Positions 57,678 through 63,842 of a stretch of DNA of 64,000 nucleotides are shown here, one piece after another (positions within the stretch are counted from its first letter, which is position 1; each line of letters starts with the position of its first letter). The position numbers and the translations under genes were made by a program. The DNA is from Dermatophagoides farinae (taxonomy: Eukaryota > Arthropoda > Arachnida > Sarcoptiformes > Pyroglyphidae). Below the pieces are notes generated by a model. It was not told where the DNA came from. It saw only the letters and a list, made by a program, of their open reading frames with translations, and ran no database searches. The DNA is taken from contig NC_134683.1 in the NCBI RefSeq assembly GCF_024713945.1, positions 3,659,501-3,723,500 of the forward strand, given 5' to 3'.

Positions 57678-60600
57678 ATGATGATGGCATCATCAAATAC
57701 ATATGATGATGATGATAATCAATGTCATCATCAACATCCTAATCAAAATCGACAATATCATCGTTCATCATGTCCATCATCATCATCATTATCAAATAAG
57801 AAAATATTCATCTATAATACTATTCTGATACTTATAATTTGTACCAAAACGATTGTCGTTGGTAAGTCTTATTTGATTATTATTTTATAAATTAAATTCC
57901 ATTAATTTGATTTGACCATTTGTGAGGAAAAAGAATGAATGAAAAATTTTTTTAAATAAGCATATAAATGTCGTTGATAGATTTTTGTTGAATTTGTTGA
58001 ATTAGTTTTTTCTGATTTGGAAAGAGTTGTAAAAAAAACATGTCATCAGATAAAGAATGTAATAATAATAATAATCCAGCATTCATAGAACGAGCTGATT
58101 CATTAACCAAACATTTTCAATTATCACATGAAGATTTTGAAAAAATATCTGGATTATTATCAAAAGAATTTGATCGTGGCCTAAGATCAACAAAAGATTC
58201 GATTGTAAAAATGTATCTAACATATGTTCGATCATTACCGAATAAAGAAGAACATGGCCGTTATTTAGCATTAGATTTAGGTGGTACAAATATACGTGTT
58301 TTATTATTAAAATTTCATGGTCCTGGATCAGATACATCATTAGTGAAACAACAACAACAGCAACAACAACAAGAACAATCTGAAAAAATTGAAATAATCG
58401 ATTCATTATGTCAACCATTGCCAACAGAATTATTCTATGGAACTGGACAACAATTATTTGATTTTATAGCTGAACTTATTGTTTCATTTGCATTACGTAA
58501 TAAATTGGCTGGTGTACGTATTGCTCTTGGTTTTACATTTAGTTTTCCAGTTGTACAACATGGCCTGGCTGAGGCAACATTAGTTACATGGACAAAATCA
58601 TTTGTTTGTTCAGGTGTCGTTGGTTTTGATGTTGTACGTTTATTAAAAGCATCATTGAAACGTAAAATGCATCATTCAATTCCATATATTGATGTTGTTG
58701 CCATTATCAATGATACAACTGGTACATTAATATTTGGTGCATTACAAGATAAAAATTGTGCCATCGGTTTGATCGTTGGTACTGGCAGTAATGCATGTTA
58801 TGTAGAACAATTACATAATATTGAAAAATGGCCATTTAATTATAGTGATCCAAAACAAGTTGTTATTAATTGTGAATGTGGTGCATTTGGTGATAATCAT
58901 GTTATTGATTGGGCATTAACACGTTGGGATCGCGGATTAAATTATGAATCACTTAATCTTAATAAACAGATACATGAAAAATTAATTAGTGGAATGTATT
59001 TGCCAGAAATTCTACGACGTTGTTTGCTAACATTAATTGAATTGGGCATATTGTTTGATGGTCGTCCACCATTAGAATTGTTTCGTCCATATTCAATTAA
59101 AACAAAATATATGTCACAAATTGATCAAGATGATGGCAATAATAATGATTTTCTACATACAAGAAAAGCAATGCAAAATATTTTTGGTACAGAAAATCCA
59201 CGTTTTAAAAATGGATTCCACGATTCAGATGTAAAAATCATACACATGATTAATCAACGTATTACACGTAGATCGGCAAATTTTGTTGCTACCGCCTTGT
59301 GGACATTAATGTGTCGTATTAATCGTGAAGATATTTCCATTGCATATGATGGATCATTAATTTGTTTACATCCACATTATCGTCAATGGGTGGAAAATAA
59401 ATTGAATGAATTTATTGCCAAAAGTGGACGTATAAAACGTTTCAGTTTGATACATGCAAATGATGGTAGTCTTTATGGAGCGGCTATTGTTGCCGCTATT
59501 TGTTATCGTGAAAAACGGCCAAAATTTATTAAAAAACATGGAAAAGTTTATGAAATTACAAGATTTTAAACAAAATTTTGATTTTTTTCCTTGATATTTT
59601 ATGTTTATAATAATAATTAAAATTTTCTAAAATTGACCACCACTGTTTTATGTTATTGGATAATGTTTTTTTATCTTTGATTTTTTCAGGTCTACTTTGT
59701 CACTGTGATATATGTGAAAAAAACAACAATACCTGTGAAACGGATGGTGTTTGTGCAGCAACACTATATAAAGAATCGGGTAAAATACGTACATCATATA
59801 GGTAAGTCATCATTTTATTCTGTAAAATTTAGTTTCTAAACACTATAGAGAAAAAAAACAAAATTGTTAGTTGTTTAGGCTCATTAATTATATTTTTTAT
59901 CTTATTTGTTTTCTGTCTGTGAAATTTTTCTTTTCGTAAATCTCAACAAAAACAACAACAACAACAACAAAAAAAACAAAAGATGTTATGACAAAAGAGA
60001 TCTATTACCGCCAGAAAATCCGGTACATTGTCAATATTCAAAACGTTTACAACGTAACGTCGATATACATTGCTGTGTAGATAGAGATTTTTGTAATAAA
60101 AATTTTCATTTTAATCCACAATTATTTAATAACAATGATGATACGGATTCATTGGATTCCGGTAAGCAATTTTTGATTTTTCAGTAGATTAATTTTTTTT
60201 TTTGCTTTTTTCTTTTTCTTTCTCTTTTCTTTTTTATATATATATGATTCTGTCACACTTTTTCATGTTGTCACAAAAAAATTTTTTTTTTTTTGCTTAA
60301 ATTGCATGTGCTCTTTGTGGTGTGTTTATGCTTGCCTGCCATTCTTCGGTTTTGAAAACAAAAAACAAAACAAAACAAAAATGCTTTTTTTACCTTGCAC
60401 ACACACACATCACACACTCAAAATAAAAAAAAATCATCGTTTAAATAGATGTATGAATAGATATACATTATTTCCAACGGATAATCCATCATGGTGTAAA
60501 AAATCAAGCACTAAACAATTTATACATAGCTGTTGTAATGATAATGATTATTGTAATCTTTTCATATCATTTGATGATGATAATGATGATGTTTTTAATT

Positions 60601-62357
60601 ATAATTTTAATAATGATGAGGATTCTAATCAAGGTAAGCTTTTCTTGTATCACCTTATATCACCTGTGTAATTGTTATTTTTATTTATAATAATCCAACC
60701 AAAAAAAAAATTGATAAAAGCGTTACTAACACAAACAAAAAAGCATGACCAAAATTGTCAATTTGTGTTTGTGTGGTGGGCATGACAACTCCTCCCCTTT
60801 TTTTCTGATTGTTTTTTTTGTGACAAATTTGCTTTTCCTAAAAATGCCAATTATAATTAATACCTCCTTTTATTTGCTAAAATGTTTTATGATCTGTTTA
60901 TTTAAATTTTCAATTTGAGATTTTGTTTTTTTTGCACTAATTTGATTAATTTTTTTCTCTTTTTCTTTGTATTCCAAATAGTTGCATCAAATTATTTTAC
61001 CAAAAATTTACCAATCATCATCAGCAGTATAGCTATATTATTCTGTTTGATATTCATATTGATAGTCATAATAATATATCGTCGTAAAACACAAGTGAAA
61101 ACGAAAAAGAAACATTTCATCAATGATGTTGAAGGTAGTGTTGCTAGTTGTGATCCATTAATACCAGGACAATTATTGAAAGATCTTCTGGATCATACAT
61201 CATCTGGTTCGGGTCTGCCATTACTTGTACAACGTAGTATAGCAAGACAGATACAATTATTGGAAATTATTGGTAAAGGTCGTTTTGGTGAAGTATGGCG
61301 TGGTAAATGGCGCGGTGAATGGGTTGCAGTGAAAATATTCTCATCACGTGATGAACAATCATGGTTTCGTGAAGTGGAAATATATCAAACCGTTATGCTT
61401 CGAAATGATAATATTCTTGGCTTTATTGCTGCCGATAATAAAGGTAAAAGATATTACCTGTATTTTCATTGTTTGCTAATTGATTGATTTTTTTTGTGAA
61501 AATAGACAATGGAACATGGACACAATTATGGCTTATTACTGATTATCATGAACGTGGATCATTATTTGATTTTTTAAGTAAAAATACTGTCGATATAGCT
61601 GGCATGTTGAAGATGGCTTCATCCATTGCAAATGGTTTAGCTCATTTACATATGGAAATCCTTGGTACACAAGGAAAACCGGCCATTGCACATAGAGATT
61701 TAAAATCAAAAAATATTCTTGTCAAAATGAATGGAACATGTGCCATTGCTGATCTTGGTCTAGCTGTTCGTTATGATTCTTCAACAAATTCAGTGGATAT
61801 ACCACCAAATCCACGTGTAGGAACTAAACGTTATTTAGCACCCGAAGTACTTGATGAATCAATCAATATTAATCATTTTGATTCATTTAAACGTGCGGAT
61901 ATCTATTCATTTGGTCTTTGTATATGGGAAATTGCACGTCGTTGTAATGTTGGTGGTAAGTGATCGATATATTATTTTAATGAATTTATATACTTCATCA
62001 TTATCGTTGTAACACACATATAGGAATACATGATGAATATCAATTACCATATTATGATGTCGTTCCATTTGATCCAACAATTGATGATATGAAAAAAATT
62101 GTTTGCATTGAACGACAACGGCCACAAATACCAAATCGTTGGCAATCATGTGAGGTAAATATCTTTGAATTTAGCTTTTTAGTAGTTTGACAGTATGATT
62201 TATCCATAACTCATTTGTATTTTTCACACAGGCACTACGAGTAATGTCAAAAATAATGAAAGAATGTTGGTATCATAATGCTGCTGCACGATTAACAGCA
62301 TTACGAATAAAGAAAACAATTGCCAATCTTGAAGCACAAGAAGATCTCAAAATGTGA
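57678..62357 (+). CDS. babo: Activin/TGF-beta type I receptor kinase (baboon type) with two alternative ectodomain exons
   Basis: Exons: 57678-57861, 59690-59801, 59983-60161 (3a) or 60449-60633 (3b), 60982-61443, 61506-61955, 62024-62154 and 62232-62357. The 3a form has 547 aa and the 3b form 549 aa. Exon 1 is Ser/His/Asp-rich, then a hydrophobic signal segment. Exon 2 opens the three-finger ectodomain ([12 protein letters not shown]). Exons 3a and 3b each supply its end, with the CCx4CN signature (CCVDRDFCN or CCNDNDYCN). Exon 4 codes the membrane helix, the GS box ([17 protein letters not shown]) and the kinase P loop ([13 protein letters not shown]). Later come [21 protein letters not shown] and [15 protein letters not shown]. 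The L45 loop reads ADNKDNGTW, the type that selects Smad2/3, so signalling through Smox/Smad2 is inferred. The receptor is a membrane Ser/Thr kinase activated by a type II partner such as punt. A hexokinase gene lies in intron 1. Exon 1 is linked by phase and hydrophobicity only and is the least certain part. Confidence 0.93.
58040..59569 (+). CDS. Intronless hexokinase nested in intron 1 of the type I receptor
   Basis: 509 aa, one exon, same strand as the host gene; it fills most of the 1828-nt intron. Hexokinase fold motifs appear in order: [15 protein letters not shown] (ATP phosphate loop, near residue 78), [14 protein letters not shown] (sugar Lys), [11 protein letters not shown] (catalytic Asp near 223), [20 protein letters not shown] (sugar Glu kept) and the C-terminal DGSLICLHP and [12 protein letters not shown]. 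It deviates from animal hexokinases at several usual residues: FSFPV for [14 protein letters not shown] for NTEWGAFGD and DGSLYGAA for EGSGRGAA. It also has a polyGln insert after residue 100. The family phosphorylates glucose to glucose-6-phosphate. The frame is long, intact and includes the catalytic Asp, so it is probably expressed. Lack of introns suggests a retrocopy, which is inference. Activity and sugar preference are uncertain. Confidence 0.93.
   Translation: MSSDKECNNNNNPAFIERADSLTKHFQLSHEDFEKISGLLSKEFDRGLRSTKDSIVKMYLTYVRSLPNKEEHGRYLALDLGGTNIRVLLLKFHGPGSDTSLVKQQQQQQQQEQSEKIEIIDSLCQPLPTELFYGTGQQLFDFIAELIVSFALRNKLAGVRIALGFTFSFPVVQHGLAEATLVTWTKSFVCSGVVGFDVVRLLKASLKRKMHHSIPYIDVVAIINDTTGTLIFGALQDKNCAIGLIVGTGSNACYVEQLHNIEKWPFNYSDPKQVVINCECGAFGDNHVIDWALTRWDRGLNYESLNLNKQIHEKLISGMYLPEILRRCLLTLIELGILFDGRPPLELFRPYSIKTKYMSQIDQDDGNNNDFLHTRKAMQNIFGTENPRFKNGFHDSDVKIIHMINQRITRRSANFVATALWTLMCRINREDISIAYDGSLICLHPHYRQWVENKLNEFIAKSGRIKRFSLIHANDGSLYGAAIVAAICYREKRPKFIKKHGKVYEITRF
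60449..60633 (+). CDS. babo: Alternative ectodomain exon 3b of the type I receptor
   Basis: This 185-nt exon is flanked by TTTAAATAG and GTAAGC. It enters in phase 2 (AG|A, Arg) and leaves in phase 1, exactly like exon 3a at 59983-60161. It codes [17 protein letters not shown] and then [11 protein letters not shown], which aligns with [17 protein letters not shown] and [10 protein letters not shown] of 3a. Joining 3a to 3b would shift the frame, so a transcript can use only one. Fly babo is known to use alternative exons for the same part of the ectodomain. Confidence 0.85.
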
Positions 62358-63126: not shown

Positions 63127-63842
63127 TCAAAGTTCATCATGTTTTGGACCGGAAAATTCTTCATGTGATATGAAACCATTTTTATCACGATCTTCATGTT
63201 GAAATATATCTTCAACCAATTTATCTTGATCTGGTAAATCATGTGTACCGGCTGCACCTTCTGGCACTTGTTTTTTAAGATAATCACTTAATTCTTCACG
63301 TGATAATTGATTATCATTATTTAAATCAATTTCTTTGAATATATTCACTGGTGCTGGCCCATCTTCAATGGCTAAACATTCAACTTCAAATATTAATGTT
63401 GATTTTGGTGGTATTAATTCACCGGCACCAATATCACCATAACCAAGATGTGATGGTATGGTCAATTTACGTCGTTCACCAGGACAAACACCCAACAGAC
63501 CTTCATCCCAGCCTTTGATTACTTGACCAACACCCAATTGAAATTTAAATGGTTCACCACGTTTATAACTATGTGGAAAAAAAATAGAATTCCATTAGAA
63601 TTAGAATTAGTCAAATCAAACATGGCAACTTACCTTGAATCAAATTCAATACCTGATTCTAATGTACCTTTATAATGCATTGAAAGCATGTCACCTTTTG
63701 CAGCCGAACGATCACATTTATCCGATTTAACCAAGGTTTCAATTTTTAATTCCGTTACATCATCACCACCATTATTATCATCAGCGATAGCCATTCCAAT
63801 GATGAAAAGAATGGTAAAAAAATTCTTGATAAATGAATTCAT
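63127..63842 (-). CDS. Fkbp14: FKBP14-type ER peptidyl-prolyl isomerase with EF hands
   Basis: Two exons (63842-63634 and 63568-63127, phase 2) give 216 aa, close to the 211 of human FKBP14. Order: a signal peptide ([17 protein letters not shown]); an FKBP domain with [49 protein letters not shown] and [12 protein letters not shown]; then two EF hands ([12 protein letters not shown] and [13 protein letters not shown]). The end is HDEL, an ER-retrieval signal equivalent to KDEL. The protein speeds proline isomerisation in the ER, in vertebrates notably of collagen chains. The start is the only Met giving a signal peptide. Identification is secure. Confidence 0.96.

Follow-up and report, generated by a model that had tools for sequence, protein, structure and literature searches.

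The analysed stretch (hereafter the window) comprises 64,000 nucleotides of Dermatophagoides farinae DNA (contig NC_134683.1, positions 3,659,501 to 3,723,500) and contains, at 57678-62357 on its forward strand, a gene for which an earlier note had proposed a baboon-type receptor with two mutually exclusive ectodomain exons, 3a and 3b. The gene can be read as one open frame with standard splice sites through exons 1, 2, 3a or 3b, 4, 5, 6, and 7. Each transcript would thus have seven coding exons, the third of them in two versions, and both the 2-3a-4 and the 2-3b-4 splice forms reach their stop codon in exon 7. Exon coordinates, splice sites, and phases (phase 2 on entry and phase 1 on exit of both alternative exons) were as the note had given them.

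The predicted protein resembles activin and TGF-beta type I receptors at both of its ends. The Pfam profile Activin_recp, which covers the three-finger ectodomain, matched exons 2 and 3a together at E 7.9e-10 and also matched exon 3a alone. Among solved structures, those nearest to the ectodomain with 3a were human TGFBR1 (ALK5) and activin receptor type-1B (ACVR1B, ALK4). TGFBR1 was likewise the closest solved relative of the kinase (554 bits), followed by BMPR1B (480), ACVR1 (455), and type II receptors (259 and less), and no ACVR1B kinase chain was among the 34 matches listed for the kinase. Together with the GS motif, and in line with the proposed baboon type, these matches identify the gene as the baboon-class activin/TGF-beta type I receptor of the mite (babo).

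Two alternative ends of the ectodomain

Exons 3a and 3b are adjacent, homologous exons of 179 and 185 nt that share the same 2/1 phases. Each opens with the last base of an arginine codon and closes with the first base of the codon that follows, and both lengths are 2 modulo 3, such that the frame demands exclusive use. Joining both exons (2-3a-3b-4) places a stop at 60454-60456, in the third codon past 3a when the split one is included, and joining neither (2-4) leads to a stop at 61085-61087, ahead of the kinase. The claim that using both or neither breaks the frame was thereby borne out. We infer that both exons are used, and we consider it very likely that they serve as mutually exclusive exons in the way the frame logic implies.

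In each of the two exons, five cysteines follow one shared arrangement (RC ... P-x2-NP-x2-C ... CC-x5-CN). Of the signature described earlier, the RC...P-NP--C layout is present in both exons, whereas the CCx4CN motif had been miscounted: CCVDRDFCN in 3a and CCNDNDYCN in 3b each place five residues between the CC pair and CN, in contrast to TGFBR1, which has CC-x4-CN. Searched as a DNA pattern, CC-x4-CN matched neither exon and was not more frequent genome-wide than a reversed control. The CC-x5-CN pattern had five matches in the window, two of which are the exons, compared to 0.31 expected, and none of 100 shuffles reached at least five. The proteins of 3a and 3b align with 17/40 identities. 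Because none of 20000 shuffles of 3b with fixed cysteines reached the real score against 3a, their similarity does not come from the cysteines alone. The same test gave 1/20000 against human TGFBR1 and 20/20000 and 3397/20000 against two other type I receptors of this genome (L011 and L012, respectively), and 3a and 3b were mutual best matches among the five sequences compared. These comparisons uphold the view of 3a and 3b as homologous ectodomain ends.

The two loci used for comparison belong to two further type I receptor genes that were found in the genome (L002/L011 and L003/L012). In L011 and L012, a single exon encodes the transmembrane segment together with the CC...CN end, and no second ectodomain end of the babo layout was found in either (frames of at least 30 codons, 9.9 kb each; shorter exons could escape). 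A 32-codon, cysteine-rich frame of L012 agrees with a loose CC-x6-CN but lacks the rest of the layout. Because no second end of this layout was seen in either locus, having this exon separate and duplicated appears to be peculiar to babo in this genome, as it is in flies. L012, which by eye is of the BMP class, lies on contig C7 on the same strand as babo, about 105 kb downstream of it. A kinase frame at L004 (C8:1126410) is accompanied by an upstream frame bearing CC..CN and is, by eye, a type II receptor.

The intron between exons 3a and 3b

The 287-nt intron between the alternative exons has an unusual layout (Table 1). A scan for YTNAY predicted a candidate distant branch site shortly after the 3a donor, with the nearest upstream AG at 60186-60187. 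It is followed directly by a pyrimidine megatract that is the only tract with a score of 39 on either strand of the window, in which nine tracts score at least 30. From immediately upstream of the candidate site as far as the 3b acceptor, the intron is devoid of AG, and an AG-free run of this length was seen in 3/20000 mononucleotide shuffles of the intron. The last 50 nt ahead of 3b reach a best pyrimidine score of 3, compared to 19 before exon 4. A CA repeat at 60400-60420 separates the megatract from the 3b acceptor, and the 3a acceptor is immediately preceded by CAA repeats.

Table 1 Coding exons of babo and predicted elements of the 3a-3b intron (window positions).
Feature	Position	Strand	Description
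Exon 1, coding part	57678..57861	+	From first in-frame ATG (predicted start) after upstream stop; signal-peptide-like; ends in phase 1; in frame with exon 2
Exon 2	59690..59801	+	Common; first ectodomain half with 5 cysteines; donor AG|GTAAGT; from splice sites and frame; aligns to TGFBR1
Exon 3a	59983..60161	+	Alternative second ectodomain half; 179 nt; phases 2/1; acceptor AG|A, donor G|GTAAGC; aligns to TGFBR1
Candidate distant branch site TTAAT	60189..60193	+	Predicted by YTNAY scan; A at 60192, +31 from 3a donor
Pyrimidine megatract	60193..60235	+	43 nt (+32 to +74); 42/43 C/T; highest-scoring tract of the window, either strand
AG exclusion zone	60188..60446	+	259 nt; ends at 3b acceptor; 0 AG, 7.0 expected from base composition
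Exon 3b	60449..60633	+	Alternative second ectodomain half; 185 nt; phases 2/1; acceptor AG|A, donor G|GTAAGC; homologous to 3a
Exon 4	60982..61443	+	Transmembrane segment, GS box, kinase start; acceptor AG|TTGC; PF08515 at E 1.3e-10
Exon 5	61506..61955	+	Kinase
Exon 6	62024..62154	+	Kinase
Exon 7, coding part	62232..62357	+	Kinase end and stop

AG exclusion zones are known to mark exons with distant branch points, zones of at least 100 nt accompany more alternative splicing, and regulatory elements in a position like that of the CA repeat have been reported for such exons (PMC1431707). In human OGDH, the exclusivity of exons 4a and 4b is enforced by branch points at +25 to +41 from the 4a donor, all under the roughly 50-nt steric threshold; large pyrimidine tracts accompany these distant branch points, and Xenopus OGDH has one major branch point at 30 nt (PMC7969005). 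The mite intron closely resembles the vertebrate OGDH 4a/4b intron in its big pyrimidine tract and its AG exclusion zone reaching to the downstream acceptor, and its candidate branch point would fall within the range of about 25-41 nt past the upstream donor. The zone of 259 nt exceeds the 100 nt taken as the minimum for this arrangement, and the tract lies near the upstream donor (+32 to +74). Among the YTNAY candidates, which are predicted only, those at +31 and +15 fall less than 50 nt from the donor and the rest from +75 on. In contrast to the mite site, which is predicted, the OGDH branch point was mapped by experiment, and the two genes are unrelated.

We propose that 3a and 3b are tandem duplicates of which one would be used at a time. 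The two resulting receptors would share the transmembrane segment and kinase, and their sole difference would be in the latter half of the three-finger ectodomain. Exclusion would operate in two layers. In the physical layer, 3b would be spliced from the distant branch point about 31 nt into the intron after 3a, backed by the 43-nt megatract, and the second splicing step would scan the AG-free sequence up to the 3b acceptor. A branch point this near the 3a donor would be too close for joint use, and 3a could then not be joined to 3b. The second layer would be quality control, in which transcripts with both exons or neither run into an early stop. The frame phase alone makes double or zero inclusion unproductive and does not prevent it. 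Enforcement by intron phase, as suggested earlier, is supported by the phases, the homology, and the stops, to which the intron adds a layout like that of distant branch points. We consider a steric lock by the predicted branch point rather probable.

Several observations weigh against this mechanism or against 3b as a working exon. AG-to-AG gaps of at least 250 nt account for 9 of 3748 in the window, and 8 of these 9 exceed the one between 3a and 3b. Weak pyrimidine runs are not specific to 3b, as the acceptors of 3a and of constitutive exon 6 score 4. Further YTNAY branch-like motifs occur at +15, +75, +104, +167, and +231, and if a branch beyond about +50 were used, the steric lock would fail. 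In the short intron that follows exon 4 (62 nt), a candidate branch A lies at +36, so that a branch at +31 may sit little below what the mite tolerates. Moreover, branch motif, tract, and zone were sought after viewing the sequence and without a genome-wide control. Some of these points favour an explanation in which the exons are exclusive but are kept apart by reading frame, RNA decay, and regulatory proteins, while 3b is spliced from an ordinary branch point nearer its acceptor. This explanation builds on the frame rule, on the longer AG-free runs elsewhere in the AT-rich window, and on the weak pyrimidine runs at some constitutive acceptors, and the candidate TTTAC at +231, which is 56 nt short of the 3b acceptor and amid a T-run and the CA repeat, would provide its branch point. 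Against it speak the start of the strongest pyrimidine tract of the window at +32, the score of 3 over the final 50 nt ahead of 3b, and an AG-free run matched by so few shuffled introns, and we regard it as possible though improbable.

The remaining counterpoints concern exon 3b itself. Activin_recp was not found at E<=1 with 3b alone, with exons 2 and 3b, or with exons 2, 3b, and 4. The G+C content of 3b is intron-like (0.238, compared to 0.30-0.35 in exons 2, 3a, and 4), and at this composition any given frame would stay open over 61 codons by chance in about 1% of cases. Compared alone with the PDB, 3b matched TGFBR1 at E 1.2-1.4, behind unrelated lactalbumins at 0.36-0.55, and a protein search of the genome with 3b returned 3b itself, then C7:1965430 (E 0.005), and then 3a (E 0.043), the 3a match starting 466 bases upstream of 3b. 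Because Pfam misses 3b and its G+C content is below that of its neighbours, 3b is the more diverged copy. Its distance from Pfam and PDB relatives, its intron-like G+C content and D/N-rich tail, and two short fly isoform fragments that are closer to 3a would also fit a decaying or rarely used duplicate, with 3a alone in the working receptor. We consider this unlikely, since 3b keeps its frame, both splice sites, matched phases, five cysteines, and similarity to 3a outside the cysteines. More unlikely still is a choice by competing intron-intron RNA pairing of the docking/selector type. Here, the best duplex, between the 3a-3b intron and the 3b-4 intron, had -24.5 kcal/mol and, being reached by 1/40 shuffles, was suggestive, whereas the other two of the three intron pairs tested were ordinary (4/40 and 7/40 shuffles). 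Taken as a whole, the explanation combining a babo gene, exclusive exons, two-layer exclusion, and isoforms that probably differ in ligand preference is the one we favour with modest confidence, slightly lowered because of the eight longer AG gaps and the two other acceptors with weak pyrimidine runs.

The match at C7:1965430-1965516 (minus strand, L016) is a short stretch, FAHSQCNDESFCNVFFSI, that is similar to the end of 3b. It reads KKN*KNFAHSQCNDESFCNVFFSI, with the CC pair half present and a stop, and no receptor-like exon was seen in its 3.1-kb locus; it is probably a chance match. A genome-wide scan with the Activin_recp profile gave no match, but its controls were silent as well, rendering the scan uninformative.

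Within the first babo intron and on the same strand lies an intronless hexokinase reading frame (58040-59569; Hexokinase_1 and Hexokinase_2), and an FKBP-type isomerase with EF hands, presumably FKBP14-like, is encoded just downstream of babo on the opposite strand (63127-63594). A group 2 allergen gene of the genome agrees with Der f 2 in 120/122 aligned residues (271 bits, compared to 247 for Der p 2), which identifies the source as D. farinae or a very close relative and thereby as a mite, the possibility that the note had raised.

Fly baboon, mite ligands, and possible ligand choice

Drosophila baboon has three mutually exclusive fourth exons that encode distinct ligand-binding domains (PMC11195991, PMC7371420), and these exons (4A/B/C) exit in phase 1, with a terminal g that completes the D codon they share (PMC12124520). 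The mite gene shares with it the activin type I receptor class, exclusive ligand-binding exons, a Cys box within the exon, and the phase 1 exit, the last of which extends the parallel that had been drawn between the two genes and that the published descriptions confirm. The two differ in number, with three alternative exons in the fly and two in the mite. Fly isoform quantitative PCR primers read GFCFTSV (assumed to be common sequence), DQLPPE (exon 4c), and KDRDF; because these readings come in the expected order, the entry boundary in the fly is probably in the same stretch.

The fly B fragment, with flanking cysteines inferred, shares 6/7 residues with 3a and 4/7 with 3b, and the C fragment 5/6 and 1/6, respectively. 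The comparison covered these B and C fragments, which are too short to decide ancestry; they would suit a 3a that has been conserved and a 3b that has diverged and may be specific to mites. Among 12 stretches on viral contigs and 105 on prokaryote contigs that match the pattern, none was confirmed as a relative. Among the papers listed by a literature search that left most subscription papers outside its coverage, no title or abstract start concerned this gene in mites. In their available text, a paper on Tribolium babo (PMC10703416) uses neither the word isoform nor the word exon, and one on crustaceans (PMC8256442) does not use isoform; dipteran receptors are treated in PMC3863949. A bolder reading, which seems to us doubtful, is that mites and insects acquired ectodomain exon switching independently, in the same position within the gene, and that a distant branch point close behind the upstream exon hard-wires the switch in the mite. 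This would provide a first concrete mechanism by which the ligand-binding exons of a baboon gene are kept from being joined.

Regarding the ligands, fly babo isoforms differ only in the ligand-binding domain (PMC7371420, PMC11195991), and activation by Dawdle in S2 cells has been reported only for the C form of the fly receptor (PMC3341346). The beta4-beta5 loop of a type I receptor, which is extended in ALK4 and ALK5, has been tied to activin binding (PMC12415261), and by its inferred placement the swapped second half of the mite ectodomain would include this loop, through which vertebrate type I receptors contact activin. Four TGF-beta-family ligands exceed the Pfam cut-off in the mite genome: L031 is nearest to inhibin beta A and L032 to GDF11/GDF8, while L029 and L030 are of BMP type as judged by eye, without a search. 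L031 and L032 sit near each other on contig C9, about 32 kb apart and on opposite strands. On contig C4, a candidate fifth ligand below the Pfam cut-off appears to be split across exons about 5 kb apart (L033/L034; GWNNWILQPPGYNANYC and NLPNMVVKSCDCA). Because of the fly isoform data, the placement of the activin loop, and the presence of several mite ligands, it is reasonable to suppose that the 3a and 3b isoforms differ in their preference among the activin-class ligands of the mite.

The mechanism of alternative splicing of fly babo is called unknown in a 2025 paper (PMC12124520); the mite sequence proposes one that can be tested. With two clear activin-class ligands and a split candidate, the question of how one receptor gene serves several ligands could be addressed in an animal with two predicted receptor forms. 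If both isoforms are used, a splice-switched ligand-binding end of the activin receptor would not be limited to insects, and the switch would either predate the split between chelicerates and insects or have been invented twice.

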